Positions 49,597-64,000 of a stretch of 64,000 bases of DNA are shown here, one piece after another (position 1 is the stretch's first letter; each line of letters begins with the position of its first letter). This stretch comes from Streptacidiphilus neutrinimicus (GTDB taxonomy: Bacteria; Actinomycetota; Actinomycetes; Streptomycetales; Streptomycetaceae), in assembly GCF_000787815.1 (NCBI RefSeq), contig NZ_BBPO01000032.1, positions 1-64,000 on the forward strand, written 5' to 3'. Under the pieces are notes generated by a model. The model saw nothing but the letters and a program-made list of their open reading frames with translations, was not told the DNA's origin and searched no databases. The position numbers and the translations under genes are program-made.

Positions 49597-50097
49597 GTGA
49601 CCCCCGTTGCATCGTCCCCGGCTGTAGCGGCTCGGATGAGTCGGCAGGCTTCTCGTAACACCTCACAGGAAGTCGCGGTTCGACGACTGCTCTATCACGC
49701 CGGCTTCCGGTACCGCGTGAACGTTCCGGTGCCGGGCATGCCTCGGCGAACCGTAGACATCCTGTTCCGGGGGCCGAAGGTTGCGGTCTTCCTCGACGGG
49801 TGCTTCTGGCACGGCTGTCCGCAACACGCGACGAGCCCGAAGTCCAACGCGCAGTGGTGGAGGAGCAAGCTCGATCGCAACATCGCCCGCGACCAGGAAA
49901 CAACAGACCATCTCAGGGGAGAGGGATGGACTGTACTGCGGTTCTGGGAGCATGAGCCGTCCGACCGGATTGCTGCGAGCGTGGCTGGCGCGGTGAGGGG
50001 AGCTGTGGCTTCCAAGGCGGCGCCTTCCGGGGCACCTCGGCTGTCAGCGCCGGTTGATAGCGTGCGGTGCTCACGTCGACCGAAGGAGACTGAGTGA
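49597..50097 (+). CDS. vsr: Very short patch repair endonuclease
   Basis: A 166-residue Vsr protein from GTG 49597 (an ATG at 49636 is the alternative, but homologues usually include the upstream SSPAVxARM segment). Motifs: RTVDILFRGPKVAVFLDGCF containing the catalytic Asp, WHGCPQH (zinc-type His/Cys), WWRSKLDRNIARDQ and VLRFWEHE. It nicks next to T:G mismatches made by deamination of 5-methylcytosine, which fits a neighbouring C5 methyltransferase. Its 3' end overlaps the NgoMIV-like gene by 4 bases. Confidence 0.9.
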   Translation: MTPVASSPAVAARMSRQASRNTSQEVAVRRLLYHAGFRYRVNVPVPGMPRRTVDILFRGPKVAVFLDGCFWHGCPQHATSPKSNAQWWRSKLDRNIARDQETTDHLRGEGWTVLRFWEHEPSDRIAASVAGAVRGAVASKAAPSGAPRLSAPVDSVRCSRRPKETE

Positions 50098-50963
50098 CAG
50101 CACCTTTCACGGCAGGGCTTTGTGGCTTCCGCAATGGCCTCCCGAACACCAGCGACTCGAGCGACAAGTTCTCGATCGAGATCGGGCAGGCATTGTTCTT
50201 CGAGCTGGGGGTACCACCGGCGGCTGAGGCTGGCCCCGTGGCGAAGCCCTGGGCTGCCGCCATGGTGGCCGACCTCACTGGTCAGCTCAGCACTGCCGCT
50301 CCCCACCTGACCGTGAGCGCAGAGCGACAGCTCTTGCAGTTCGAGCAGTATGCGCACCTCGGCGTGGCCAAGAACCTCGGGGACGACGCCGGGTTCGAGG
50401 TCGCCTCCGCCATCAGCGCCCTCGAAGGAGCCCTGGAGGCCGACCCGGGGCTGATCCCGGGGGGAGTCCTTACGGCCGTCGACGGCCTGCGAGCAGCCGT
50501 TGCCGGTGCGGAAGAGCGGCGCAGATTGTTGCTCGATCTGATGGCGGACGAGTCACCGCTCAACCTCGACCTTGCGGTGGAGCGGGAGACAATCACGGAC
50601 CAGCCGAGTGCGGTTCCGCCGCACCTTGTTGCGGGGTTTTCACTCAAGTGGTCGCTCCGGACGGACAGGCTGCAGGATCCTCGCACCCAGGGAGCACAGA
50701 TGGCTGCGCTCCGCCGGGGCAGGATGCCGCATTTTGCCGCCGTGACCATGGAGCCGCGGCCCTACTTTCTCGGCCGACTTGGCATGGGTACCGGTGATCT
50801 GGACTGCGTGTACCACCTGGCCCTCCCGGAACTGGACAAGGCGGTGAACGCCGTCTGCGTCGGTCCCCGGCGAGTCAAGCACCGGGACACGTTCAGGCGG
50901 ATGGTGGATCAGCGGAGACTACGGGACTACGGCGAGCTCGTCGCGTATCTCTCCTCGCTGTGA
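50094..50963 (+). CDS. NgoMIV-family type II restriction endonuclease
   Basis: A 289-residue nuclease; GTG 50094 overlaps the vsr stop. The C-terminal half contains AGFSLKWSLRTDRLQDPRTQ (the S-x-K catalytic segment), RRGRMPHFAAVTMEPRP and GTGDLDCVYHLALPELD, which fit the NgoMIV family; the length also fits (286 residues for the reference enzyme). NgoMIV cuts GCCGGC as a tetramer. The recognition site here is inferred from the family only. It converges with the NaeI-like gene (7-base gap). Confidence 0.8.
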   Translation: MTAPFTAGLCGFRNGLPNTSDSSDKFSIEIGQALFFELGVPPAAEAGPVAKPWAAAMVADLTGQLSTAAPHLTVSAERQLLQFEQYAHLGVAKNLGDDAGFEVASAISALEGALEADPGLIPGGVLTAVDGLRAAVAGAEERRRLLLDLMADESPLNLDLAVERETITDQPSAVPPHLVAGFSLKWSLRTDRLQDPRTQGAQMAALRRGRMPHFAAVTMEPRPYFLGRLGMGTGDLDCVYHLALPELDKAVNAVCVGPRRVKHRDTFRRMVDQRRLRDYGELVAYLSSL

Positions 50964-50970
50964 GGCCTGG

Positions 50971-51954
50971 TCAGTAGAGGCTGGGTGCAACGACCCTGTC
51001 GTCCCCCTCGCGCCAAGCTACGTACCGTGTGCGACCGATCTCCACGCAGGGTCGGTGAGTATCGGTCGGTGCCGGCGCGAGGCGGACAGCCACGAAGGTG
51101 CCCTTGGCGGGCACGGGGAGATCCAGAGCGCGAGCAATCCGAGGGTGATCATTCTGGTGGCCCAGAATGAGGATTCCTTCCTCGCGCAGGACCTTGCGGG
51201 CGTCTCTCGCACGCTTGAGCCCGTCCTCCTGACTGGCGACCGTCACAAGGGTGTTGCGATCGACTATCTGTTCCTGGACTTGCCGGAACAGCTCGTTGGT
51301 ACGGAGCTGCCCGCCGTTGCCACCTCCGCGGTACCCGTCGGACGCACGGAAGATCGCCTCTCGCTTCTCCTGCGGCAGGCCGAGGAGTAGGTTGCGGGGC
51401 AGGTCACCCTCGGCGACCAACCAGCGGATTCGGGCCCGCCCGGTGATGTTGAGGGACCGCTTGCCGTCGCGGTTCCGGCCCGCATTGAGCGCATCGTCGG
51501 TGATGCGAACGAGCCCGACGCGAAACTTGGAACGCCGGTCGTCCACGGCCATCAGCAGGCACAGATGGCCCATGGCTTCGATCGGAATCGTCCAGTTGAC
51601 ACTCTTGGTGCCGCTCGTGAACTTCGCATCCACTTCGTGGCCCGCGATCGAGTAGTCCATGTCGTCGCCCCGATCGAGTTGGAACGCCGAGCGCGCGACG
51701 ATCTCGACTTTCGTGCCGAGGTACGTCTTCTCGGTCGACTCGAGCAGGTCGAGGTCGAACCGACCTGTCCGCTGGCCATCGAGGACCTCGTCGATCGACT
51801 GTCGCAGCACGGCACCGAAGCGCTGCTCCGTGTGCGCTTGCCGGCGGAACCAACCGAGTACGTCAAGCAGCCCCTCGTCCTCGGCAAGGTCTGGCTCGAG
51901 GTGCAAAGGCAGAGGCTCGGCTACGTGCCCTGCGTGTGACGCATGAGTATCCAC
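50971..51954 (-). CDS. NaeI-family type II restriction endonuclease
   Basis: A 327-residue protein (reference NaeI is 317 residues) from GTG 51954. Endonuclease domain: STEKTYLGTKVEIVARSAF, DDMDYSIAGHEVDAKFTSG (catalytic D-x-K, preceded by MDY), then IEAMGHLCLLMAV and RKVGLVRITDD-like positions FRVGLVRITDDALN. The C-terminal region (LPQEKREAIFRAS onwards) fits the allosteric DNA-binding (topo-like) domain. NaeI recognises GCCGGC and needs two sites. It is oriented toward the NgoMIV-like gene, so the chromosome carries two nucleases of the same likely specificity. Confidence 0.85.
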   Translation of the reverse strand: MDTHASHAGHVAEPLPLHLEPDLAEDEGLLDVLGWFRRQAHTEQRFGAVLRQSIDEVLDGQRTGRFDLDLLESTEKTYLGTKVEIVARSAFQLDRGDDMDYSIAGHEVDAKFTSGTKSVNWTIPIEAMGHLCLLMAVDDRRSKFRVGLVRITDDALNAGRNRDGKRSLNITGRARIRWLVAEGDLPRNLLLGLPQEKREAIFRASDGYRGGGNGGQLRTNELFRQVQEQIVDRNTLVTVASQEDGLKRARDARKVLREEGILILGHQNDHPRIARALDLPVPAKGTFVAVRLAPAPTDTHRPCVEIGRTRYVAWREGDDRVVAPSLY

Positions 51955-51999
51955 CGCCGGACCCTATCGGAGCAGAGCCTCCGGCGATGAGTACTTTTG

Positions 52000-52021
52000 T
52001 CAGACCTGCTCCGTAGTCTGA
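52000..52021. promoter_or_regulatory. Inverted repeat in the divergent region before the NaeI-like gene and the unknown gene
   Basis: TCAGAC (52000-52005) and GTCTGA (52016-52021) are perfect 6-bp arms with a 10-base spacer, immediately before the + strand gene and 46 bases upstream of the NaeI-like start. It may be an operator for the nuclease gene. Confidence 0.35.
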
Positions 52022-52024
52022 TCT

Positions 52025-52891
52025 ATGACTGAGCGTCATGACACTTCGGGGTGGGGGACGATGGCGAACGGCGGGACAGTGACGACCGCGGACGAGGTCC
52101 TGGCGCACTTCAGGGTGACTCCCGTTGCCGAAGCGGAGTATCGCCGGTGGGAGGGGGATGAGCGCCGCAAAGAGGTGGTATGCCATGTCCTTCGACACAG
52201 GAGCGAGGCTGTGTATCGGCTCGACCGTCGGGACATTGGGACGGCCTGCGAGGCCACGAGTCAGCCCCACGGCCATGCCCTCGGCAACGTGCGGCGGAAC
52301 GTGGCGGAAAAGGTCACCTTGATTGCCGACTGGAATCCTCCTTTTGCTTTCACCCATGTGCTTCATTACATGCTGGAGCAGAGTGGAAAGATTCCGACTT
52401 GGCTGGAATTCATCCACTTCATCCGGGGAACGAATCAGGGTCGGAACATGCTCGGCTGGGCCAGCGAGGCGGCGAGGAGCGAAGCCTTACGGGCGTTGGA
52501 TCCGCGCGGCCAGCAGCGCTGGAGCCCGAGCGAAGTAGACGATGCGCTTCGGTGGCGTCTCGGGAACGCCTACTACTCCTTTGTGCGAGAGCTGCACGTC
52601 CTGGTCCACATGCGCTCCAAAGGGCTTGATGTCCGAGTCCATCCCCTGGCAGACGCACTGTTTCGCACGGATGCCTGGGTGAGCAGAGCCGTTTTCAGTA
52701 TCTACGTTGGGAATCGCAAGTACAGGAGCAATCACGAGGGGCGCAAGAAGGAAGCTGTGCGCATTCTTGGTGGAGCTCAACCATCGTTCTGCTTCGAGTC
52801 CATTCACTTGCCGAGTGCGGCTGAGCGGGGCAAAGTTTACCTCGCCAGCGAAAGTCAATTGGAGGCGCGCTTGAGGAAGCTTCTCCCTTGA
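52025..52891 (+). CDS. Hypothetical protein in the defence island
   Basis: A 288-residue protein from ATG 52025; ATG 52061 with GGTGGGGGA upstream is an alternative. It has no membrane segment. A mostly helical core includes FTHVLHYMLEQSGKIPTWLE, FVRELHVLVHMRSKGLDVRV and FRTDAWVSRAVFSIYVGN, and it ends with QLEARLRKLLP. I do not recognise a family. Lower GC than the left half of the window suggests transfer with the island. Between the nuclease pair and the methyltransferase, a regulatory or accessory restriction role is plausible but not shown. Confidence 0.65.
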   Translation: MTERHDTSGWGTMANGGTVTTADEVLAHFRVTPVAEAEYRRWEGDERRKEVVCHVLRHRSEAVYRLDRRDIGTACEATSQPHGHALGNVRRNVAEKVTLIADWNPPFAFTHVLHYMLEQSGKIPTWLEFIHFIRGTNQGRNMLGWASEAARSEALRALDPRGQQRWSPSEVDDALRWRLGNAYYSFVRELHVLVHMRSKGLDVRVHPLADALFRTDAWVSRAVFSIYVGNRKYRSNHEGRKKEAVRILGGAQPSFCFESIHLPSAAERGKVYLASESQLEARLRKLLP

Positions 52892-52925
52892 TGGGCGGAT
52901 CGATCGCAGTGGTGATGCTCGAAAT

Positions 52926-52965
52926 GCCCCGGCAGCGGTTCCACGGCTGTCCGTGGAACCGGGGC
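52926..52965. terminator. Strong bidirectional hairpin between convergent genes
   Basis: GGTTCCACGG (52937-52946) and CCGTGGAACC (52951-52960) form a perfect 10-bp stem with loop CTGT. Outer GCCCC (52926) and GGGGC (52961) can extend it. It lies in the 79-base gap between the hypothetical gene and the methyltransferase gene. Confidence 0.75.
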
Positions 52966-52970
52966 GTGCC

Positions 52971-54134
52971 TCAAGCCGCGTCCGAGGCGGCCTCTTCCGC
53001 CGCCCCGGGGCTTCGCCGGGGCCTGAGGGCCCGCTGGATGTAGGGCTTGATATGCCGGGCAATCGCCTCCGCCAGGATGGGTGGGACTGCGTTGCCGATC
53101 TGCTTGGCAATATCGATCTTGCTTCCGCACCATACAAAGTCGTCCGGGAATGTTTGGAGGCGGGCAGCCTCCCGATGAGTAATGGGTCGATTGATCGAAT
53201 TTTCCTGATTGCTCGGATCCCATTGAGGATGAAGATATTGGCCCTTCTCCGGCTTGAAGAATTCTGTCCTGATGGTCAGGGAAGGGCGATCCCAGCGCAT
53301 CCGACCCATCACGTCAGTGGTTCCGCTTTTCTTCTCCCGCCAGCATCGGGGGAGTAGGTGATCCGGCAGGTCGAAGCGACCGCCACCCGGTGGAATGTGG
53401 TGATAGCGCTCCAGGGAGAGCGCTGTGGGAGTGCGGCCCAGGTGGAGATGGCTGCTGTTGAAGATTCCGGGGACCTGCTTGCCGAAGAACTCTTCGCGGT
53501 GGTCGGGTAGCTCGGTTGTTGCGGGCACGGGTGGAAGATCAGCGATGGCGTCTCTCACGGTGCGCCAGGGCTTGAGGCCGAGAAGCTCCGATGGCTCGTG
53601 TGTAGCAAAGGGCATCCCGATCCTGCCGATCCGCGAGCCGATGACGATCGCGCGCTTGCGACGCTGAGGGGCGCCGAAGTCCGTGGCAAGAAGCAGCGAG
53701 TGAGAAAGGGTGTACTCCTCGAGGAGCCCACCTGGCTGAGTCTCCTGGCGGAGCAGCGCGAACTCGGATGACCCTATGAAGCGGTCGACGTTTTCGATCA
53801 CGAAGACCATGGGCCTGGCCTGGAGCACGAAGCGGATGTACTGCTTCCACAGCTTGTTGCGGGGGTCGTTCACATCGCGTGACCCAAGGTTTGAGAACCC
53901 CTGGCACGGCGGACCACCGATGATCACGTCCGCGTCAGGGATCTCCTCGTCCTTGATCTCGGCAATGTCTCCCCACCGCATGTGCCCCTTGCCGAAGTTC
54001 GCCTCATAGGTGGCCGCGGCAGAGAGATCCCATTCGACGGCCATGACGGGCTGGTAGCCCGCGGCATCCTTGAAGCCACGGCTCATGCCGCCACAGCCGG
54101 CGAACAGATCGATCACGGTGATTGGTCGCGCCAT
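52971..54134 (-). CDS. DNA (cytosine-5-)-methyltransferase
   Basis: A 387-residue enzyme from ATG 54134. Motif I DLFAGCGGMSRGF, motif IV GGPPCQGFSNLGS with the catalytic Cys, motif VI FVIENVDRF, motif VIII QRRKRAIVIGSR and motif X QIGNAVPP are all present. The target-recognition region lies at about residues 180-300 (FFKPEKGQYLHPQ downstream). It could protect GCCGGC sites against the two neighbouring nucleases, and/or act as drmMII of the DISARM-like genes upstream on the same strand. Confidence 0.9.
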   Translation of the reverse strand: MARPITVIDLFAGCGGMSRGFKDAAGYQPVMAVEWDLSAAATYEANFGKGHMRWGDIAEIKDEEIPDADVIIGGPPCQGFSNLGSRDVNDPRNKLWKQYIRFVLQARPMVFVIENVDRFIGSSEFALLRQETQPGGLLEEYTLSHSLLLATDFGAPQRRKRAIVIGSRIGRIGMPFATHEPSELLGLKPWRTVRDAIADLPPVPATTELPDHREEFFGKQVPGIFNSSHLHLGRTPTALSLERYHHIPPGGGRFDLPDHLLPRCWREKKSGTTDVMGRMRWDRPSLTIRTEFFKPEKGQYLHPQWDPSNQENSINRPITHREAARLQTFPDDFVWCGSKIDIAKQIGNAVPPILAEAIARHIKPYIQRALRPRRSPGAAEEAASDAA

Positions 54135-54259: not shown

Positions 54260-54448
54260 CTACAACGTTCCTTGCTCAAGCAGGTCGCGCACGGCATCGG
54301 AGAAGCGGCGCAGCTCGAGCCGTCCATCTCCGTTGCTGAACGCCAGGACGCGGTCGCCCGGGTTGAGCCCTGCTTCGGCAAGAAGACCGAGGGGTAGGGC
54401 TACGCGCCCGTGCTCATCGATCACGAGCTCGCTGGGGGTGCGGATCAC
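54260..54448 (-). CDS. AbrB/MazE-like DNA-binding protein
   Basis: A 62-residue swapped-hairpin protein: LVIDEHGRVALPLGLLAEAG then GLNPGDRVLAFSNGDG. GTG 54448 is the first standard start, with AAGGA 9 bases upstream. The coding-like frame extends further up to a position (ATC at 54476-54478) preceded by a perfect GGAGGA at 9 bases, so the real N terminus may be IANKTSRTTTV with an unusual start. Family members are transition-state regulators or antitoxin repressors. No toxin gene adjoins it; it lies between drmB and the methyltransferase and may repress the island. Confidence 0.65.
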   Translation of the reverse strand: MIRTPSELVIDEHGRVALPLGLLAEAGLNPGDRVLAFSNGDGRLELRRFSDAVRDLLEQGTL

Positions 54449-54548: not shown

Positions 54549-56351
54549 CTACGGGCGTTTGCGGACCTCTGGCAGGACTTCATCCAGGAGACCCCGCACC
54601 TCGCTCCCACCGAGCACCAGCTGTCGGTCAAGGAGGCGGTTTCCCGTCTCGCACGATGTCTCGCTCACGAGGGCGCAACCGTGGCAGGCCGATAGGTTCA
54701 GGTGTGAAGACCCTTGGCGGTCGCTCTCGATGCAGACCGGGTCGTTGGAGCAGAAATCTGCGTCGTCCAAGGCCGAAACGAGGAGCGGGATCAACTTGTC
54801 AGGCCCTCCGAGCCTGACAAGTCCCCCAAGGGTTCCTTGCGCATCTCCAGCCGCGGTGTAGATGAGGATGCCCGCGGTCTTATCCGTACGGTCCGAGTTC
54901 GCATAGATCCGCTCCTGGAGCGCCGCAGAAGCGTAGCCGCTCGCGAACGCCAAGCGGCGGATCAGCAGATGGGCGAGGGTATGGAGCGCGACGTACCTGG
55001 GCTCGGGTACGTCGAGACGGTCGGCCCACGAGGACTCGGCTCGACGCTTGATCAGGAGGCCCGCACGCGCCTGCACCTCTGGTCGGGCCTCCCAGGTTGC
55101 CAGCTTCTCTTCCTCGAACTGGAGGAAGATCCCCTCGCCGAACAGCTCGACCGCCGGGTAGGTCGGCCACCGCTTCTGATCTGATCCCAGATCGACACTG
55201 ATCAAGGCGGCGTCCGCGTGATAGCGGCGGAATCCACGAAGAGCACGGACCTCACGAACCCGCCGCACCTGACCGATGCCATGGATCTTGTCGAGCAGGC
55301 TCTGCGGCCCAGCCGCACCCTCCAAGCTGCGTCCATCGACGACAAAGTCGCTACCTGTGCGGTCGCGCCCGCTGTCGAGCTTCTTCAAGAACGCGGCCCA
55401 CTCGCCGTCCTTCAGGTCCAGCAGCATGTCGTCCGCGCCGGTTTCCTCTCCTCTGGCAACGGCCAGGACGGTCTCGGCCGTGACCCCCAGCTCGTCCGCA
55501 ATCCATCCGGCCACCATTTCGGCTTGCGGTCCACCGTTGTCCGTCACGACCTTCTCGAAGAAGACGTGGCCACGGATCTCATCCTTCGCCTCGACAGACC
55601 GAGGGCGTTCTTCCGGGATGTCGAGGGCCGAGATCTTCTGGGCCATGTAGTTGCCAGTGGCGCCACGTTGTACGGCGACGAGCTCGAACGAGCAAGGGGC
55701 TTTTGCCGAGGCGTCCGGTTCCCAGGGTTGCCTTCCCACGCACCGGATCCCGTCCCGCTGCAAGGCACCCTTGGACACGAGCTCCGCGAAGGTACGGGAG
55801 TTCCCGCATCCGTGGCATTTGACCACCAGAGACCCAAGGCCCTCCCCGCGGCTTGCCGACTTCTTGAACGTGAGCGACTTGTAGTCACGGCAGAACCGGA
55901 CTGCCTCATTCAGACTGGCCTCGCGGCCGCGATGCACCCACTGGACCCAGTTGATGTCCTGGATGTGGCTGCCCCGTTCGCAGACAGCAACGTAGCGCAT
56001 CGGCACCAGGAGACCCCCGCAAGCGCAGGTGTTGCTCCATTTGCCTCTGTTCTTCCCGGTCAACTTGGAGAGCTTGTCGCAGCGCTCACAGAACCGCCAG
56101 GCCGGGAACCGCCAATATTGCAACGCGGGCGTGTCTTTGCCTGCATGGCCGGCATGCGTGGGCGGCTGTCGCAGGACACCGGCGCCGAGGCGGGCCAACA
56201 GCCTTTCACAGCTGATCTCGTGGGCGAACTTCGTCTTCCACCAGGAGGTGTCCGGCGCCATGAGAGACTCACCTCGGATGTCGACGACGGCACCAACACC
56301 GAACGGCGAGATCGTTTCCGACAGCCGCAAATCATGCTTGATCTTCTCCAC
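54549..56351 (-). CDS. drmB: DISARM-type DrmB (DUF1998) protein
   Basis: A 600-residue protein. The N terminus LRLSETISPFGVGAVVDIRG follows DrmB proteins, and zinc-type Cys clusters occur at 88/91 and 109/111 (CERCDKL, CACGG), in VKCHGCGNSRTF, and in the C-terminal CSNDPVCIESD and CHGCALVSETSC. The DUF1998 region (LHTLAHLLIRRLAFASGYAS) is near residue 460. In DISARM, DrmB pairs with the helicase DrmA on phage DNA. The gene overlaps drmA by 20 bases, as expected for tightly coupled subunits. Confidence 0.85.
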   Translation of the reverse strand: MEKIKHDLRLSETISPFGVGAVVDIRGESLMAPDTSWWKTKFAHEISCERLLARLGAGVLRQPPTHAGHAGKDTPALQYWRFPAWRFCERCDKLSKLTGKNRGKWSNTCACGGLLVPMRYVAVCERGSHIQDINWVQWVHRGREASLNEAVRFCRDYKSLTFKKSASRGEGLGSLVVKCHGCGNSRTFAELVSKGALQRDGIRCVGRQPWEPDASAKAPCSFELVAVQRGATGNYMAQKISALDIPEERPRSVEAKDEIRGHVFFEKVVTDNGGPQAEMVAGWIADELGVTAETVLAVARGEETGADDMLLDLKDGEWAAFLKKLDSGRDRTGSDFVVDGRSLEGAAGPQSLLDKIHGIGQVRRVREVRALRGFRRYHADAALISVDLGSDQKRWPTYPAVELFGEGIFLQFEEEKLATWEARPEVQARAGLLIKRRAESSWADRLDVPEPRYVALHTLAHLLIRRLAFASGYASAALQERIYANSDRTDKTAGILIYTAAGDAQGTLGGLVRLGGPDKLIPLLVSALDDADFCSNDPVCIESDRQGSSHLNLSACHGCALVSETSCETGNRLLDRQLVLGGSEVRGLLDEVLPEVRKRP

Positions 56352-59300
56352 GATGCACCTCCTCCTGGGGCTCCTGGACCTCGACGGCGACGTTGGGCTC
56401 GACGGATCTCATCGAATCTGCGACGAGCCACCCTTCGCCGGATTGACCGAATCTCTTCAGCAGAGCGGCTGGCTCGGACTTCGAACGCTCGTAACGCAGG
56501 TTCTCGCCGGACTCACGCGCCTGCGCGGCCCGGCGGTCCCAGTCCTTCAGTTGGCTCCATACGGTGCCCCTCGTCTCGTCCGCTTCGACGGCGTCGGAGC
56601 GCGTCACATACCCGAGGAAGCGTTCAACAAGCCGCTCGACCGCGCTGCTCTGGTTGACGTCTGTCAGGTCGAATCTGACCGCGGTGTCGTTGTTGGCGAG
56701 CGTAGTGAACGACTGCCTCAGTAGTGCAACTAGAGCACCCGCCAGGGACCGGTCGCGTGAAGCGAGGGACCAGGGCGTGACGCTGGTCGGTTCAACGCTG
56801 CGATACAGGGCCTCGTGGTAGCCACGGAACGTCTCGAAATGGGATCTGTCCCTGGCCCGGCTCGACCTGAAGAGGGTGACGACGACGCCGCTCGTGTCTC
56901 CGCGGCCGACCCGGCTGGTCGCCTGGATGTACTCCGACGTGGTTTTTGGTTGTCCCACCATGAGCATCAGGGCGAGTCTCGGGATGTCGATGCCGACAGA
57001 GAGCATGTTGGACGAGAGGACGACGTCGACCGCCTCCGACGAATTATTGGCGCTGATGCGTAGCGCGCGGAGATCCTGGGGCAGCTCCTCGGCTCCGCGG
57101 CGGCTCGTCAGTTCCAGCACCTTCCCTGCCCTCACTGGACGCAGAGGGAGCTCCAGTCGATCGGCTCGGGGCTCAAGTCGGCCGTTCACGTCGTCGACGA
57201 CGAGGGTCGCGGACCGACCCAGCTCGCGCAGGCTGTTGTGATACATCACTAGCGTCCAATACGCGTCCCGGGACGCGGAGGACGGAGCACGCGAGCCCAG
57301 CACTTCAGGGATCTCGAGCATGGGGGTGACAGCAGAGATCACGGCCGATGGCTGAGATACCGATTGCGGCATCAGACCGATGTAGAGGCGTCCTTCTCCA
57401 CTTTCCACGGGACGGGAGAAGAAGGTGCGGTCGTCCTCCAGTCCTGATGGCGGATACAGGGCCACTGCACGCCCGTAGAGTCCTTGAACCTGTTCCTCGG
57501 AGGCACGGATCGTGGCCGTTGACGCGACGATCTTGGGGATAATGCCAAGTTGGCTCGAGAGGAGTTGGATGACTGCGTCGAACACCGCCACCGTGGTGCC
57601 GAGCGGCCCCGCCAGCAAGTGCAGCTCATCCTGGATGATCAGGGACGGCTGCTTGAAGCCGGTTCCGATACCGAGCAGCCTGCCGGCTCGGGGATTGAAC
57701 TGCAGGCGAGCGAACTTGTCGACGGTGGCCAGCAGGATAGTGGGCGGGTCGTCGTAGATAGCCTGATCGACAACTGCGAGCGGCAGCTCGCTGCTGAAGG
57801 GACAGGACATGTCGACGCAGTGGAGCACGACCTCCTTCCCGACCAGGCCCATGCCGTAGTCCTCCGGCTTGCTCCTGCCTCTTGGCACCATCGGCGTCCA
57901 GCACCACGGACAGCTCTCGACCTGGAACTCGTTGGCCTCCTCAGGAGCAGTCGCTTTGAGCAGACGTTCACGCGCCTTCTCCGCCTCCGTACGTGTGCTG
58001 GGCGTGACCTCGTTGCCCACCCAGAGGCCAATCGAGAAGGGGGCCATCCCCTTAGCCCGGCTGTCCGTGGCTCGCAGTATCTCCATGGCGCAGACCAGGG
58101 CCGCCGCCCGTTGAAACTGTTGGGACGTCAAAAGGCGCAGTGTGTAACGCGTGATCACGGCGGTGCCACCCCCGGCGATGCCGTGAATGAGCCGACGGTG
58201 GAAGATCTCGATCGCTGCGAGAGCGAGATAGGCCTCCGTCTTGCCGCCGCCCGTCGGGAACCAGATCAGGTCGACAAGCTCCCGTTCTTGATGCCTCGTC
58301 TCGACCGTGGAGGCCAACGAAACAAGCAGGAAGCCGAGCTGGAAGGGCCGCCATTGCGGTTCCTTCACGGGACAGTCATCGCCATCCCGGTTGATCGACG
58401 CCTGCCGGAGCTGGAGTCGCATCGCGGCCATGGCGAGGGAGAAGGCTGTTCGCAAGTCCTGCTGATCGTGCGTCCGAAGAAGGTCCACTCCTTCCCGCAT
58501 CCGGGTCACCGCATCCACAGACCGCCGGGCGATCCGGATCGCCACCGGCTGAGCTTCCCTGAATGTCTGTGCTCGCTCCAGCTCATCGGAGGCCCAGTTG
58601 GCGAAGGCGCTCACAAAGGCGTCCAGAGAGCGAAGCACCGCGTCGGGCTCCGTGTCGATTTCTTGGAGATGCTCGAGTGCCAAGGCCTTCGCCTCCGGCG
58701 TCGCCTCGTCGAAGGCTGTCGTCTCGACCGTGGGTACCACGAAAGCCGGCACAGGTTCGAGGAACGCTCTGGTGCAGCGACCTTCCGTGAATTCCCAGCT
58801 CGCAGCCATACCGTGGCCGACTGCGTAGACCTTCTTGTTGCGGTAGCGGAGTCGCAGCTCGGCGGTCTCGGGGTCGGTATCGATCGAGCGGGTGGTGTCG
58901 TACTCCAGGATTTCCGCACCCGCGGAAGCGGAGACCGACAGGTGGACCTGGAAGAGCATTCGAGCGATGTCGAGTCGGTCGTCGGCGGTCGACTCGGTCA
59001 GAACACGGACGTGCACCGTGACCAGCGAGTCACCCTTGAAGTCGCGCCAGCGGGACCCGATCTCGATGGATACATCTCCAACGGACAGAGCGGCAGGTCC
59101 TTCACCGCGACGGAGAACAAGTGGGTCGCCGTGGTACGGAGTGCGACGCCACCGGGGCGGTCCTTCCCCGCCGACCGAAGCGTAGGTGCCGCAGGAGAAA
59201 TCGACCGCGACGGAGTCACTGTTAGTAACGAACGAGATTGCAACCGACGAGGGACGCCAATCTTCGGCCAAGGGGACGCCCGCACCGTCTTCCTCGACGT

Positions 59301-59526
59301 CACCGTCGGGAACATCGGCAGACAGGACTTCGTCCGGGTGCTCGGCTTCTCCGTCCGGGTCCTCGGCTTCGGGGAGGGAAGCAGAGGGTTCACGCGGGAA
59401 CAGCATTCCGACGGAGTACTGACGATGGGGCAGATTTGCCGTGAGTTCCTCATCCCCTGCCTCGGGGCCCACGTACGACGCGCGCAGGTGTTTCAACGCC
59501 TCCTGCTGGGCACTCGTGAGGTTCAC
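56332..59526 (-). CDS. drmA: DISARM-type helicase DrmA
   Basis: A 1,064-residue superfamily 2 helicase. Walker A WFPTGGGKTEAYLALAA near residue 421, DEXH-type box IIQDELHLLAG near 632, STATIRASEEQ (motif III), SVGIDIPRLALM (motif V) and YIQATSRVGRGDTSG (motif VI, near 870). A Cys pair (CPWCWTPM) and CVDMSCPF between lobes suggest a zinc site. DrmA with DrmB forms the DISARM core, which senses and blocks incoming DNA. The start overlaps the NERD/UvrD gene by 4 bases. Confidence 0.85.
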   Translation of the reverse strand: MNLTSAQQEALKHLRASYVGPEAGDEELTANLPHRQYSVGMLFPREPSASLPEAEDPDGEAEHPDEVLSADVPDGDVEEDGAGVPLAEDWRPSSVAISFVTNSDSVAVDFSCGTYASVGGEGPPRWRRTPYHGDPLVLRRGEGPAALSVGDVSIEIGSRWRDFKGDSLVTVHVRVLTESTADDRLDIARMLFQVHLSVSASAGAEILEYDTTRSIDTDPETAELRLRYRNKKVYAVGHGMAASWEFTEGRCTRAFLEPVPAFVVPTVETTAFDEATPEAKALALEHLQEIDTEPDAVLRSLDAFVSAFANWASDELERAQTFREAQPVAIRIARRSVDAVTRMREGVDLLRTHDQQDLRTAFSLAMAAMRLQLRQASINRDGDDCPVKEPQWRPFQLGFLLVSLASTVETRHQERELVDLIWFPTGGGKTEAYLALAAIEIFHRRLIHGIAGGGTAVITRYTLRLLTSQQFQRAAALVCAMEILRATDSRAKGMAPFSIGLWVGNEVTPSTRTEAEKARERLLKATAPEEANEFQVESCPWCWTPMVPRGRSKPEDYGMGLVGKEVVLHCVDMSCPFSSELPLAVVDQAIYDDPPTILLATVDKFARLQFNPRAGRLLGIGTGFKQPSLIIQDELHLLAGPLGTTVAVFDAVIQLLSSQLGIIPKIVASTATIRASEEQVQGLYGRAVALYPPSGLEDDRTFFSRPVESGEGRLYIGLMPQSVSQPSAVISAVTPMLEIPEVLGSRAPSSASRDAYWTLVMYHNSLRELGRSATLVVDDVNGRLEPRADRLELPLRPVRAGKVLELTSRRGAEELPQDLRALRISANNSSEAVDVVLSSNMLSVGIDIPRLALMLMVGQPKTTSEYIQATSRVGRGDTSGVVVTLFRSSRARDRSHFETFRGYHEALYRSVEPTSVTPWSLASRDRSLAGALVALLRQSFTTLANNDTAVRFDLTDVNQSSAVERLVERFLGYVTRSDAVEADETRGTVWSQLKDWDRRAAQARESGENLRYERSKSEPAALLKRFGQSGEGWLVADSMRSVEPNVAVEVQEPQEEVHRGEDQA

Positions 59527-61043
59527 CTGGCGACCTGCTTTCGAACGAGGTCCTGGAGCCGCTTCTTGTCCCCCGCGGACGCAACCACGTGGAGCGTGAC
59601 GCGGGCTCGGGTGACGGCCACGTAGAACGCAGCCGTTCCCGGGCTGTCGTACTCCTGGGGCAGATCACAGACAATGACGTGCTCTGCTTCCAGTCCCTTG
59701 GCGAAACGCGGGCTGGTCACCACGAACCCGGCCTTGGTCTTCCGGGGTTCCTCGTCTGAGGCGACACTGATGATCCAGATGTCTTCGCGGCGCGCACCGT
59801 TCGAAACGAGGTCGCGAGCCACAGTCTCGGCAGCCTCGACATCCGCGGCCCTCTCGGTGAACCAGCGCCACTCGACTCTGTCACCATGAACGATGCCCGG
59901 GTCTCCGACGTCCGCGCCGAGATACTCCTGGACGACATGGACAATCGCTCGGGTATTTCGCACGTTCCTGTCGAGGTCGTACTGAAGCGCTTCCTGCTGC
60001 ACAAGCTCGCATACCTCTGGGTCGAACTCGCCGTCCACTCGCGCCTGGTTGTTGGGATCGAGGAACATCCTCCATCTACCACCGGCACGACCCCCGTGGA
60101 TCACGGAATCCAGCGCATCCATGCCTTCGGCATTCATCAGGTCCTGTGCTTCGTCGACGAAGACGACGTCGTACTGCCTCTCACCGGTCAGCTCGGCGAA
60201 GGGAAGCAAGTCGATGTCTCTCCCCGCGATCCGTGGACCGAAGAAGCCGACCAGGGAGGGGGAGTGGAAGGTGATGAGGACCGAGCGCCCCTTGCCGGCC
60301 TCCAGCTTGGCGCCCTCCGCCAGGACCAAGGACTTTCCGGTTCCCGCGCCGCCGAAGACGAGCATCCTCGGGTTGCGCGAAAGCGCGGCCAACACGTGGG
60401 CCTGGCCGTCAGTGGCCCGGTTCTGCTCCTCGATCACCGCACCGCGCTGGGCATCGATGACGGGCATCCGCGTGAACTCGCCGAACAAGCGCTCGCGCAA
60501 ATCCTTGTATCGTGCAACTCTGACGCCGGACGGGGCAGTCCGCGCCTTCGAGGCGACGCTTTCAAAGGCCTGCGTCATGGCGGAGATGCTCATCTGGTCC
60601 TTGGCCCACCAATGGCTCCCCTTCCACTCGATCGCAGGGGGAGGGGAATCGATGTCAGGCGTGATCGCGACGGCCTCGGTCGCAAACCAGCCGATGCCGT
60701 CCTCGTGCAGGATGTTCCGCAACGCATACATGGCAGACTGCGCCTGATCCATCGGGGATTCACGCAGCTTCTTCCAGTCACCGTAGCGGTCGATGCTGTA
60801 CCAGATGCCGTCGTGCTTCCTGACACCTCCGCCCTTGACCTCGATGAGGATCACGATGCCGTCCCAGAGGACGACGAAGTCTGCCTCGCCTTGCTGCTTG
60901 GCTGCGTGGCTTCGAAGCTTGACGGAGTGGAAGGCCACGGCATGCTCTGGCCCGTCGATCGCATGCAGCAGGCGCGCTACGCGACGTTCGGCGTTGCTTG
61001 TGGTCGTCGACTCGATATCGGCGAGGTCCGGTACGAGGATCAT
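59523..61043 (-). CDS. NERD nuclease-like domain fused to a UvrD/Rep-type helicase
   Basis: A 506-residue protein. ATG 61043 overlaps the upstream helicase stop (ATGA). The N-terminal NERD region (about 15-110) has GEADFVVLWDGIVILIEVKG, with Asp and the ExK pair as in nuclease-related domains. The helicase part has Walker A FGGAGTGKSLVLAEG near residue 228, Walker B DVVFVDEAQDLM near 297, and FYVAVTRARVTLHVVAS (motif VI). It may process DNA ends for the DISARM-like genes, but this is not a standard DISARM component. Confidence 0.85.
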   Translation of the reverse strand: MILVPDLADIESTTTSNAERRVARLLHAIDGPEHAVAFHSVKLRSHAAKQQGEADFVVLWDGIVILIEVKGGGVRKHDGIWYSIDRYGDWKKLRESPMDQAQSAMYALRNILHEDGIGWFATEAVAITPDIDSPPPAIEWKGSHWWAKDQMSISAMTQAFESVASKARTAPSGVRVARYKDLRERLFGEFTRMPVIDAQRGAVIEEQNRATDGQAHVLAALSRNPRMLVFGGAGTGKSLVLAEGAKLEAGKGRSVLITFHSPSLVGFFGPRIAGRDIDLLPFAELTGERQYDVVFVDEAQDLMNAEGMDALDSVIHGGRAGGRWRMFLDPNNQARVDGEFDPEVCELVQQEALQYDLDRNVRNTRAIVHVVQEYLGADVGDPGIVHGDRVEWRWFTERAADVEAAETVARDLVSNGARREDIWIISVASDEEPRKTKAGFVVTSPRFAKGLEAEHVIVCDLPQEYDSPGTAAFYVAVTRARVTLHVVASAGDKKRLQDLVRKQVAR

Positions 61044-64000
61044 GATCCCTGCTCCAGCCAGAGGTCTTCGTAGGCGCGGTAGCCGAGGAAGTCGTTGTAT
61101 GCCCCGAAGTTGTCCGCGACGTCCACGATGAGGCACTCGTCCTTGCCGCCGTTGGCCTTGCCGCGCAGGCCGCGGCCGGCCATCTGGATGTATGCGCTGG
61201 GACTGAATGTCGGCCGTGCAATGTAGAGAGCTTGGACCCCAGGTGCGTCGAAGCCCTGGATGAGCAGATCACAGTTGGTCAAAACCCGAATATGTCCCTG
61301 CTTGAACTGGTCGATGATGTGGCGGCGCTGTTGCCGCCCAGTCTGGCCGCTGACCGAGGCGGCCTGGACGTTCCTGTAGCTAAGTGTCGCTGCAAGCACC
61401 TGGGCAGACAGGACATTCGGCGTGAACACGAGGATCGACCACTCGGGATTGTGTTCCAGCTGCCCCATGATGTGGTTCACAAGAGCCTTCATGCGTGCCT
61501 GGTTCCGGCCGATGCGATCGAGCACCTGAGGTTCGAGCTGCCCCATTGACTGGGCGCGCGCAAACTCAGCCGACCCGAGGTTGACATCCATGCCGACCAG
61601 CACGTCATGCTTCACCCGTGCGAGGACACCGATTTTCGAGAGTTCCTCGTATGCGTCGAACCCTTCGAACGCCTTCATCTTGCGCTTGCCGAACCGAGAG
61701 GCGAGCTCTTTGGTCGGCTCGTTGTCGTACGCCCTGCCTTTGAACGGGGTCGCCGAGAGGCCGACCAATGGCCGCTCCTGGCTGTGGCCGTCGACGCCAA
61801 GCCATCTGAGGATCTTGGTGTATCGCTTCGAACCGCCAGCTCGGTGAGCCTCGTCGATGAAGACGGCAGCGGGACGACTCAGCCACTCGTACTCGGCTGT
61901 GCCAACCACCTTCTCAAGTTTGGCGTCGGTGGCAACGATCACGCTGAACTCGGTGTCAGGCTGGTGAACGTTGTTGTTCTCCCAGAGCCGGCCGATGGTC
62001 AACGGACGCTCGTCGCCGAGCCAACGCCATACAGTTTCGAAGGTCTGCACTGCCTGCTCGCAGAGCTCCATCGACTGCGCGATCCAAAGCACGGTGCCGC
62101 TCAACCTGTCGTCGGCGAGGAGCCGGAGCACAGTCTCCGTCGCCACACGGGTCTTGCCCGCCCCTGTGGGCAGTTCGACGAGACCCTTGAGTGCGTCGCC
62201 GTTTGCTTCCCGGAGAGTCAGAACGTCCCGCAGTTGTCGACTGATCTGCTTCTGGAATTCGTGCAAGTCGCCGAGGGATACAGCGCCGGGCACAATGAAC
62301 TCTTCATCCTGACGGTCGTTCCGTCGCCCTGCGTACTTGGTTCCGAAGCCCATCTTCCGAAGCCAGGCTATTGTCGGTGCGCTACCAGCCCAGACTGTAG
62401 GGACATCTGTGTACCCTGCTTCACTGAACTGCTCTTTGAGCAGCCGTATTGAGTCGCTACCGTACACAGTGAGGAGGAGATCGCCGACGGAAGTTGAAGC
62501 ATTCACCAAGCCTTGTGCTTCGAGAGCCTGCCAGAGTCCTTTGGGAAGAACCTCCTTCAGTGTGTCGTCACCAAAGAAGACCTCCAGGCGCTCTGCGTCG
62601 TCGGACGCAGAGCGTGCAGCCTGGCGCTGCTCCTCGAGGCGTTGGTCGAGGCCTGCCTGAAGAACGTCGCTCAGGTCGGCATTTGTCAACCTCAGTTCGA
62701 AGGCAGCGTTGATGATCTCCAGGATTTGTCTCTCGTCAAGGTCCGCGCGGACCATGAGCGCGAGTCCCTCCAGATGCGATTCGAGCGTCTCGTCCTCGAC
62801 ACCGTCTCCGTCCGCCGTGGTCACGCGCTTTGTGATGTGAACAGCCTTGATCACGGTTGCGTTCAAGACCTTGTCTGCAACGAAGGTCGAACGGAGCCCG
62901 GTGTACAGGTCGATGACCGGCTCGGGGTCCCGCTGGCCGTCGATGAGGATGGAGGCAGCGAAGCTGTCTTCGAACCTTCGGCAGCCGATCACCCTTACCA
63001 ACTGCTCCGTCTGAAGCTCGTTGGAGCGGAGGAATGGCTTCTGCTTTGTGCTGAGGAAGGCGACTTGCTCGTCGGTGGTCGCGAGGTACACCGTGTCAGG
63101 CCGCCGCAACTCGATGTTGCGACCGACCCGGGCGGGGATCAGAGGCGGATGCACGTCGGGGAACGCGATCCGGCCAGCCGTGAGGACAAACTTCGTAAGG
63201 GTGCCGTCTTTGATCTGCGACGGGATAAGTCCCGACTCGAGGGAACCACGGAGTACGTCAGGGGGCACGTCGTCCAGCTCCTTCGGCAGAGCCAGAGCAT
63301 CTTCGACGTGCCGCGGCCCGCGGAAGAGCGGGAGCAACGCCTCGAACTCGATCAGCGATGCAGACACGACCTGGCTCGGAGCGCGGAAGCCGCGATTCGA
63401 CTTGAGTAGACCTGCTCGCTCCACGGCCCACCGAACGGGGGACAGGACATTGCGGCTCTGCCGAGTGTCGATGTCCTCGCAGGCCCAGTAGGCGTCTCCG
63501 TCAAACCGGAGAAGCTCAGATGTCCACAACTCACGGATGTGGTCCGGAGCTTGACCCTCCTGCAGCATGAGGAGCACAGAGAACGGCCCAGGGCCTTCGT
63601 TCCTGTCGAATTCGATTCGCTCGATGGGACGCTCTCCAGGACCGAGTCTGCGGTTGAGCTCGTCTATAACGTCTCTGGAGTACTCGTGGAAGTAGACCTC
63701 GTCCTCGACCGAGTAAGTTGGCACCGCAGCATGAATAACTCCAGCAGCATGTGCGACTTGAGGTACGCAGCGCGTTCGGTCCAGCAGTCGGCCTTCGATG
63801 CCGTCACCGAGTCCGTCGATGTCGATCACTTGCCCGGGCCAGGACCAGCCACCATCGCGGGTTGGCACCTTGATGCAGCTCTGAGTGTCGTGTGAGACGA
63901 CTTTGCTGGCCACGTCCACGCGTACGTCGAGGACAGAGTCCCAGAACTTCGCAAGTTCCTCGTCGCTCGACCCCGCTGAGAGCTTGGCCATCCTGGCTCT
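61040..64000 (-). CDS. Large DEAD/DEAH-type helicase, 5' end outside the window
   Basis: The frame is open to the right edge; an ATG at 63991 would give 983 residues, but the frame continues upstream of it without a stop and that ATG lacks a properly spaced ribosome site, so the true start is probably beyond 64000. The N-terminal 500 residues are not recognised for certain; they may be the end of a sacsin-like ATP-binding region. The helicase core follows: VELPTGAGKTRVATETVL (Walker A, about 605 from that ATG), AAVFIDEAHRAGG (about 707), LVGLSATPFKG and QMAGRGLRG (about 935). Four-base overlap with the NERD/UvrD gene. Confidence 0.8.
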   Translation of the reverse strand, partial: RARMAKLSAGSSDEELAKFWDSVLDVRVDVASKVVSHDTQSCIKVPTRDGGWSWPGQVIDIDGLGDGIEGRLLDRTRCVPQVAHAAGVIHAAVPTYSVEDEVYFHEYSRDVIDELNRRLGPGERPIERIEFDRNEGPGPFSVLLMLQEGQAPDHIRELWTSELLRFDGDAYWACEDIDTRQSRNVLSPVRWAVERAGLLKSNRGFRAPSQVVSASLIEFEALLPLFRGPRHVEDALALPKELDDVPPDVLRGSLESGLIPSQIKDGTLTKFVLTAGRIAFPDVHPPLIPARVGRNIELRRPDTVYLATTDEQVAFLSTKQKPFLRSNELQTEQLVRVIGCRRFEDSFAASILIDGQRDPEPVIDLYTGLRSTFVADKVLNATVIKAVHITKRVTTADGDGVEDETLESHLEGLALMVRADLDERQILEIINAAFELRLTNADLSDVLQAGLDQRLEEQRQAARSASDDAERLEVFFGDDTLKEVLPKGLWQALEAQGLVNASTSVGDLLLTVYGSDSIRLLKEQFSEAGYTDVPTVWAGSAPTIAWLRKMGFGTKYAGRRNDRQDEEFIVPGAVSLGDLHEFQKQISRQLRDVLTLREANGDALKGLVELPTGAGKTRVATETVLRLLADDRLSGTVLWIAQSMELCEQAVQTFETVWRWLGDERPLTIGRLWENNNVHQPDTEFSVIVATDAKLEKVVGTAEYEWLSRPAAVFIDEAHRAGGSKRYTKILRWLGVDGHSQERPLVGLSATPFKGRAYDNEPTKELASRFGKRKMKAFEGFDAYEELSKIGVLARVKHDVLVGMDVNLGSAEFARAQSMGQLEPQVLDRIGRNQARMKALVNHIMGQLEHNPEWSILVFTPNVLSAQVLAATLSYRNVQAASVSGQTGRQQRRHIIDQFKQGHIRVLTNCDLLIQGFDAPGVQALYIARPTFSPSAYIQMAGRGLRGKANGGKDECLIVDVADNFGAYNDFLGYRAYEDLWLEQGS

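Follow-up and report, generated by a model that had tools for sequence, protein, structure and literature searches.

A Four-Gene, drmAB-Based Operon of Actinobacteria: A Predicted Defense System Akin to, but Separate from, DISARM of Classes 1 and 2

Overall architecture of the locus

The window, namely the whole stretch of 64,000 nucleotides analyzed here, makes up the initial 64 kb of a contig that measures 88.6 kb and belongs to an 8.4-Mb genome. Four minus-strand genes, all overlapping, extend to its right edge and, as read from the sequence, follow the order GHKL-SF2, NERD-UvrD, drmA, and drmB. These genes and those lying to the left of them are as follows.

61040 to 64000, minus strand: gene for a GHKL (sacsin/Hsp90-like)-SF2 helicase, its 5' end outside the window at contig position 65818 (Pfam, NCBIfam, PADLOC, and PDB profiles; AF2 model)
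59523 to 61043, minus strand: fusion of a NERD nuclease and a UvrD-type SF1 helicase, 506 aa (Pfam NERD, alignment A2, motifs)
56332 to 59526, minus strand: drmA, YprA-family SF2 helicase, 1064 aa (PADLOC, PDB 7s9v)
54549 to 56351, minus strand: drmB, DUF1998/MZB, 600 aa (NCBIfam DrmB_fam)
54260 to 54448, minus strand: AbrB-like small ORF, 62 aa, a sporadic accessory (TIGR01439, below cut-off)
52971 to 54134, minus strand: C5-cytosine methyltransferase (PF00145, 1.6e-62)
52061 to 52891, plus strand: uncharacterized ORF, lying within the cassette between its M and R genes (homologue in locus L126)
50971 to 51954, minus strand: NaeI-family restriction endonuclease, outside the drmAB operon (PF09126, 6e-89)
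50094 to 50963, plus strand: NgoMIV-family restriction endonuclease, outside the drmAB operon (PF09015, 4.3e-25)

A first-pass annotation of this DNA had described drmA and drmB as recognizable and overlapping, and both assignments are supported by profile matches. It had also described four-base overlaps throughout, which is correct for the GHKL-SF2/NERD-UvrD and NERD-UvrD/drmA junctions (4 bases each) but not for that between drmA and drmB, where 20 bases are shared. The two genes that it had placed after drmB are likewise present: the C5 methyltransferase is clear, and the AbrB-like ORF is matched weakly (TIGR01439, E=0.0046). An AbrB-like ORF is also located downstream of drmB in related loci L092, L098, and L099, and on the opposite strand in L123. 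With respect to mobility, the operon shows no phage match and a single, partial plasmid match. Note that in the left flank (43-49 kb) Pfam profiling covered a minority of the genes.

The drmA and drmB gene products

The relationship of the operon to DISARM is defined by the presence of drmA with drmB (DUF1998) adjoining and overlapping it. DrmB matches the NCBIfam DrmB_fam model at 4e-123, with a score of 412 bits versus a cut-off of 240. DrmA matches the PADLOC DrmA profile at 4.5e-196 and the NCBIfam DrmAS model at 8e-244, yet its score of 812 bits falls below the equivalog cut-off of 950. Residues 18-1047 of DrmA can be aligned with residues 148-1301 of the Serratia enzyme (PDB 7s9v, 1e-140), such that the N-terminal ∼147 residues of the latter, the end to which Bell et al. 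assigned an EVE-like domain, have no counterpart here. An acidic, low-complexity stretch extending from roughly residues 46 to 93 occupies the position of the Serratia trigger loop (residues 176-232), and on the basis of this correspondence it may be regarded as a putative trigger loop. By inspection, the PTGGGKT and DELH motifs of DrmA are intact.

The GHKL-SF2 and NERD-UvrD proteins

The more distinctive gene of the operon is that encoding the GHKL-SF2 protein. Its open reading frame spans contig positions 65818-61040 and corresponds to 1592 residues, although the likely start is the ATG at contig position 65773, leading to a protein of 1577 residues, and conservation within the family begins near this ATG at residue 16. 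The first-pass annotation had termed the gene a large DEAD/DEAH helicase. The helicase domains are indeed there, but the N-terminal GHKL ATPase lies beyond the window edge and was not visible to that annotation. The polypeptide chain consists of an N-terminal ATPase of the sacsin/Hsp90 type, a middle region of ∼700 residues, and a C-terminal RadD-like SF2 helicase. The N-terminus is matched by Pfam SACS at 2e-7 (just under the cut-off) and by NCBIfam P_loop_sacsin at 6e-19 (above it), as well as by the PADLOC TmtA profile at 7.7e-54, the latter match being confined to residues 27-438 of 1592; we take TmtA to denote Tiamat. The helicase portion matches Pfam ResIII (4e-17), Helicase_C (1e-14), and DEAD, together with a RadD profile (6e-28), and profile matches from the PDB include sacsin SR1 and RadD (6jde, 3e-37). 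The N-box and GRFGLGF motifs of the GHKL module, and the LPTGAGKT and DEAH motifs of the SF2 module, are intact by inspection.

The AF2 model of the N and middle domains of the GHKL-SF2 protein has a pLDDT of 87.6, and the top 50 Foldseek matches to it include Hsp90 and sacsin. In the model, the GHKL and middle domains resemble those of Hsp90 and sacsin. A nuclease concealed in the middle region was considered, but none was identified from the model and Foldseek. Past about residue 400, there is no invariant charged residue among 68 sequences, and thus a catalytic site in the middle region is unlikely.

The NERD/UvrD fusion that had been assigned to the gene preceding drmA is borne out by matches to Pfam NERD (2.2e-9) and UvrD_C_2 and by the presence of Walker motifs. 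In alignment A2, Glu 53, Asp 55, Glu 68, and Lys 70 of the NERD domain are invariant, as are the Walker residues. The motifs GEAD...EVK of the NERD domain, and GGAGTGKS and DEAQD of the UvrD portion, are all intact by inspection, and of 44 type I loci (defined below) searched by regular expression, 41 retain the NERD and Walker motifs intact.

Distribution and subtypes

When 84,980 species genomes were searched with an alignment of GHKL-SF2 proteins, 79 loci from about 40 actinobacterial genera were recovered, and their neighboring genes were located by tblastn. In 77 of the 79 loci, drmA and drmB lie directly downstream of the GHKL-SF2 gene on the same strand. The two exceptions are L148, which runs off its contig, and L132. 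The latter looks rearranged, with drmB and drmA opposite in orientation and separated from the GHKL-SF2 gene, beyond NaeI and C5 methyltransferase genes.

Three types can be distinguished by the SF1 helicase. Type I, to which the window belongs, contains NERD-UvrD and accounts for 47 loci in nearly 30 genera, including Streptomyces, Nocardia, Microbacterium, Amycolatopsis, and Micromonospora; these loci mostly retain the 4/4/20-base overlaps. Type II (26 loci) contains a UvrD protein without a NERD domain, and type III (L115, L116, and L118-L120) contains no UvrD. In the type II UvrD protein, Pfam finds essentially helicase domains only, and the C-terminal extension of the protein is modeled as a β-rich domain. 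This extension was considered as a nuclease candidate; the Foldseek matches were dominated by UvrD proteins and did not identify the β-rich domain. In four of the five type III loci (L115, L118, L119, and L120), and in none of the other relatives, a divergent upstream SNF2 helicase and an N6-methyltransferase match DrmD and DrmMI as a pair, and these hybrids may link the family to class 1 DISARM. The record for L115 is titled Planococcus sp. APC 4015 and is possibly mislabeled; the operon is otherwise actinobacterial, and the DrmA of L115 lies near that of Microbacterium L118 on the tree.

In a survey of 395 Actinomycetes genomes selected without regard to the gene, the full GHKL-SF2 protein was observed in 17 genomes (18 copies), and 17 of the 18 copies are situated just upstream of drmA. 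The exception, G118 (L153), shows no drmA in the 2.4 kb that remain before the contig end. For NERD-UvrD in this same survey, each of the nine strongest matches (E<1e-180) is encoded upstream of drmA, after which the E value falls to 4e-75. The co-occurrence of the extra helicase genes with drmAB is thereby upheld, and among homologous loci the NERD and helicase genes are not sporadic additions. Pairwise distances for the genes of the operon correlate with r = 0.92-0.99, values reached in 0 of 999 permutations. Such correlations rest on shared ancestry and linkage, yet they speak against independent assembly.

A tree of DrmA sequences was rooted on four drmC-bearing loci, which lie outside the family. 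Type I is monophyletic and positioned near type III, and type II forms a separate clade that includes L057, a locus without GHKL-SF2 in the neighborhood of drmA. A wider survey of the phylum provided L152, in which the genes are arranged as NgoMIV, C5 methyltransferase, GHKL-SF2, UvrD, DrmA, DrmB, and NERD-UvrD. It thus appears as a type II operon followed by a separate NERD-UvrD gene after drmB, with the C5 methyltransferase and NgoMIV genes upstream.

The C5 methyltransferase and neighboring restriction genes

The C5 methyltransferase of the window (METHYLTRANSFERASE) begins 415 bp after drmB, and its best PADLOC match is DruM, not DrmMII. It is followed in order by the uncharacterized ORF and the NaeI-type endonuclease, with the NgoMIV-type endonuclease beyond. 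The region from 50094 to 54134 constitutes a restriction-modification (R-M) cassette in which a single C5 methyltransferase gene accompanies endonuclease genes of two families, NaeI and NgoMIV. Endonucleases of either family are known to recognize GCCGGC. The same order of methyltransferase, ORF, and NaeI is found in L126, where the homologue of the ORF (260 bits) again lies between the methyltransferase and NaeI genes. Given this recurrence, the methyltransferase of the window is, from gene order, most likely the M gene of a NaeI-type R-M cassette, and its reading as a simple drmMII is disfavored. A C5 methyltransferase accompanied by both endonucleases also occurs in L045, L110, and L124.

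In L089, L111, L121, and L145, a C5 methyltransferase gene lies 21-78 bp downstream of drmB in the same orientation, and for these loci the drmMII reading may hold. Across the family, 55 of 80 operons have a C5 methyltransferase gene no more than 6 kb away, as compared with about four such genes in the entire 8.4-Mb genome of the window. These positions hint at a functional link without proving one, because the loci are related and defense genes cluster in any case. R-M genes cluster around the operon, and among the loci compared no methyltransferase is consistently part of it. Most of the type II loci in the range L129-L151 share a conserved divergent module upstream of the GHKL-SF2 gene, coding for an HTH protein of ∼700 residues, a protein of unknown function of ∼330 residues, a DUF6339 protein of ∼295 residues, and a C5 methyltransferase; this module is possibly an uncharacterized R-M system.

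Relationship to DISARM and to other defense systems

The absence of a visible drmC, as had been remarked at the outset, extends beyond position 64000. A DrmC HMM gave zero matches in the 40-80 kb region of the contig and in the 79 related loci; this model was built from four drmC-bearing loci and recovers only those four training sequences. The genes for PLD-domain proteins in this genome are on other contigs. DrmE is without a profile match among the proteins of the window and right flank scanned with PADLOC, from the C5 methyltransferase gene rightward, and neither DrmD nor DrmMI appears among the profile matches of the scanned proteins of the locus. DrmC has been reported as nonessential and often missing from DISARM operons (PMC9142583), and thus its absence alone is unremarkable. 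What is striking is the stable architecture that replaces it.

With class 1 and class 2 DISARM the operon shares separate, adjoining genes for DrmA and DrmB, a DrmA that can be aligned with that of Serratia, and a defense-island setting with R-M genes. It differs in lacking DrmC, DrmE, and DrmD/DrmMI, in its shorter DrmA, and in the addition of the GHKL-SF2 and NERD-UvrD proteins. The most serious rival explanation holds that the locus is nevertheless plain DISARM of the class 2 kind, in which the NERD domain substitutes for the PLD nuclease DrmC and the GHKL-helicase is an incidental accessory. Such an arrangement would explain an intact NERD domain beside drmA and drmB where drmC is missing and a C5 methyltransferase is close by, and in six loci (L034, L035, L045, L062, L065, and L066) NERD-UvrD indeed partners drmAB in the absence of GHKL-SF2. 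The type II operons, however, have GHKL-SF2 and UvrD but neither NERD nor DrmC, and the GHKL-SF2 gene is co-inherited with drmAB as tightly as are the others. The comparison with class 2 drawn in the first-pass annotation is further weakened by the lack of a DrmE match and by the assignment of the methyltransferase to the NaeI cassette. We therefore consider this explanation unlikely. The suggestion that the NERD protein replaces DrmC fares only partly well, because type II has neither, and it is one possibility only. The broader proposal, a variant built on drmAB that carries additional helicases but lacks drmC, is upheld by the right flank and by the relatives.

A role in DNA repair, with YprA/MrfA-, RadD-, UvrD-, and MutL/Hsp90-like components processing damaged DNA, might be entertained from the RadD-like character of the SF2 portion and from the repair enzymes found among the relatives of YprA and UvrD. 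It is nonetheless improbable in light of the patchy distribution of the operon (17 of 395 genomes), its clustering with R-M genes, and the affiliation of its DrmA with the DISARM enzymes and not with MrfA. That a GHKL-helicase/NERD-UvrD unit simply stands beside an unrelated drmAB pair is scarcely credible given the four-base overlaps, the fixed-order adjacency, and the distance correlations, even though NERD-UvrD and GHKL-SF2 each have relatives outside the operon and drmAB also occurs without either.

The other known systems overlap with the operon in individual components. Tiamat shares the TmtA-like N-terminal ∼400 residues of GHKL-SF2, but there is no full-length TmtA match, and here the protein carries a RadD-like SF2 C-terminus within a four-gene operon. 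Gabija shares a UvrD/GajB-like SF1 helicase (the GajB profile matches being weak), but in the present operon UvrD forms a single protein with NERD and is associated with drmAB. GajA is absent from the operon, and its sole match among the scanned flanking genes (3.5e-6) is an FHA-ABC transporter. ARMADA is built upon a PglX-like methyltransferase and a BrxHII-like helicase, with RelE-UvrD in addition in type II, and TALON, which is largely confined to the Chloroflexota, upon TPR-CSD and TBP genes, an ARMADA-like YprA, and NERD (PMC12458937). Like the window operon, ARMADA types I and II combine a YprA-family helicase with further helicases, that of type II being a GajB-like UvrD, and TALON combines a YprA-family helicase with a NERD nuclease. 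By profile scans, however, the window operon contains neither a PglX-like methyltransferase nor a full match to BrxHII; RelE-UvrD, TPR-CSD, TBP, and the ARMADA-like YprA are also missing, DrmA is of the DISARM type with DrmB separate, and NERD is fused to UvrD. By the definitions of PMC12458937, the operon is neither ARMADA nor TALON. In the Shedu system, the protein VcSduA has been proposed to place a PD-(D/E)xK nuclease under the control of a GHKL ATPase (PMC12137116). There, the two functions reside in one protein, whereas here they are distributed over separate proteins with helicases and drmAB. A search of the open-licence literature revealed no description of a GHKL-SF2/(NERD-)UvrD/drmAB combination, and such absence is not proof.

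Proposed function

Taken together, the four genes probably constitute a drmAB-based system directed against phage, or foreign DNA in general, that is related to yet distinct from class 1 and class 2 DISARM. We infer this function from gene content and context, and the operon is most likely a previously undescribed sister to classical DISARM. It could be named as a separate class. With somewhat less assurance, we favor an actinobacterial class of drmAB immunity in which GHKL-SF2 acts as a gatekeeper alongside an interchangeable SF1 helicase, either NERD-UvrD or UvrD, that may also be lacking, the response being controlled by an Hsp90-like clamp rather than by a PLD nuclease.

For Serratia DrmAB, a mode of DNA loading has been proposed from structures and binding assays (PMC9142583). 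By homology, the DrmAB core here would load onto single-stranded or 5'-overhang DNA, behind the acidic trigger-loop-like segment, at phage DNA ends or replication intermediates. NERD-UvrD, a putative translocating helicase-nuclease, would then unwind and cut the DNA that DrmAB has opened. The GHKL-SF2 protein may function as an ATP-driven, dimerizing Hsp90-like clamp or gate on a RadD-like translocase, thereby licensing or assembling the effector. Self-protection might arise from the DNA-structure preference of DrmAB, possibly aided by methylation from the nearby C5 methyltransferase. Type II operons are devoid of a recognizable nuclease, and thus a NERD effector cannot be universal; in these, either a host nuclease would be recruited or a helicase blockade would suffice.

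How DISARM destroys foreign DNA when DrmC is not essential is an open question (PMC9142583). In many actinobacteria, as described here, drmAB is tightly co-inherited not with the usual nuclease but with GHKL-SF2 and a nuclease-helicase, and the family as a whole shows drmAB stably partnered with other helicase and nuclease modules. Types I, II, and III offer a natural comparison as to which partner supplies the effector. The family also connects a sacsin/Hsp90-type ATPase to a DNA-helicase system with a presumed role in immunity. It further suggests that only a portion of it is captured by the PADLOC v2 models and by the NCBIfam cut-off for DrmA.

Finally, other drmAB arrangements without drmC were observed in L036, L037, L041, L046, L047, and L038-L044. 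In these, drmAB is followed either by a protein of ∼940 residues, whose sigma-70 region resembles that of MzaA as ascertained in L037, or by a short helicase similar to UvrD, as ascertained in L043.
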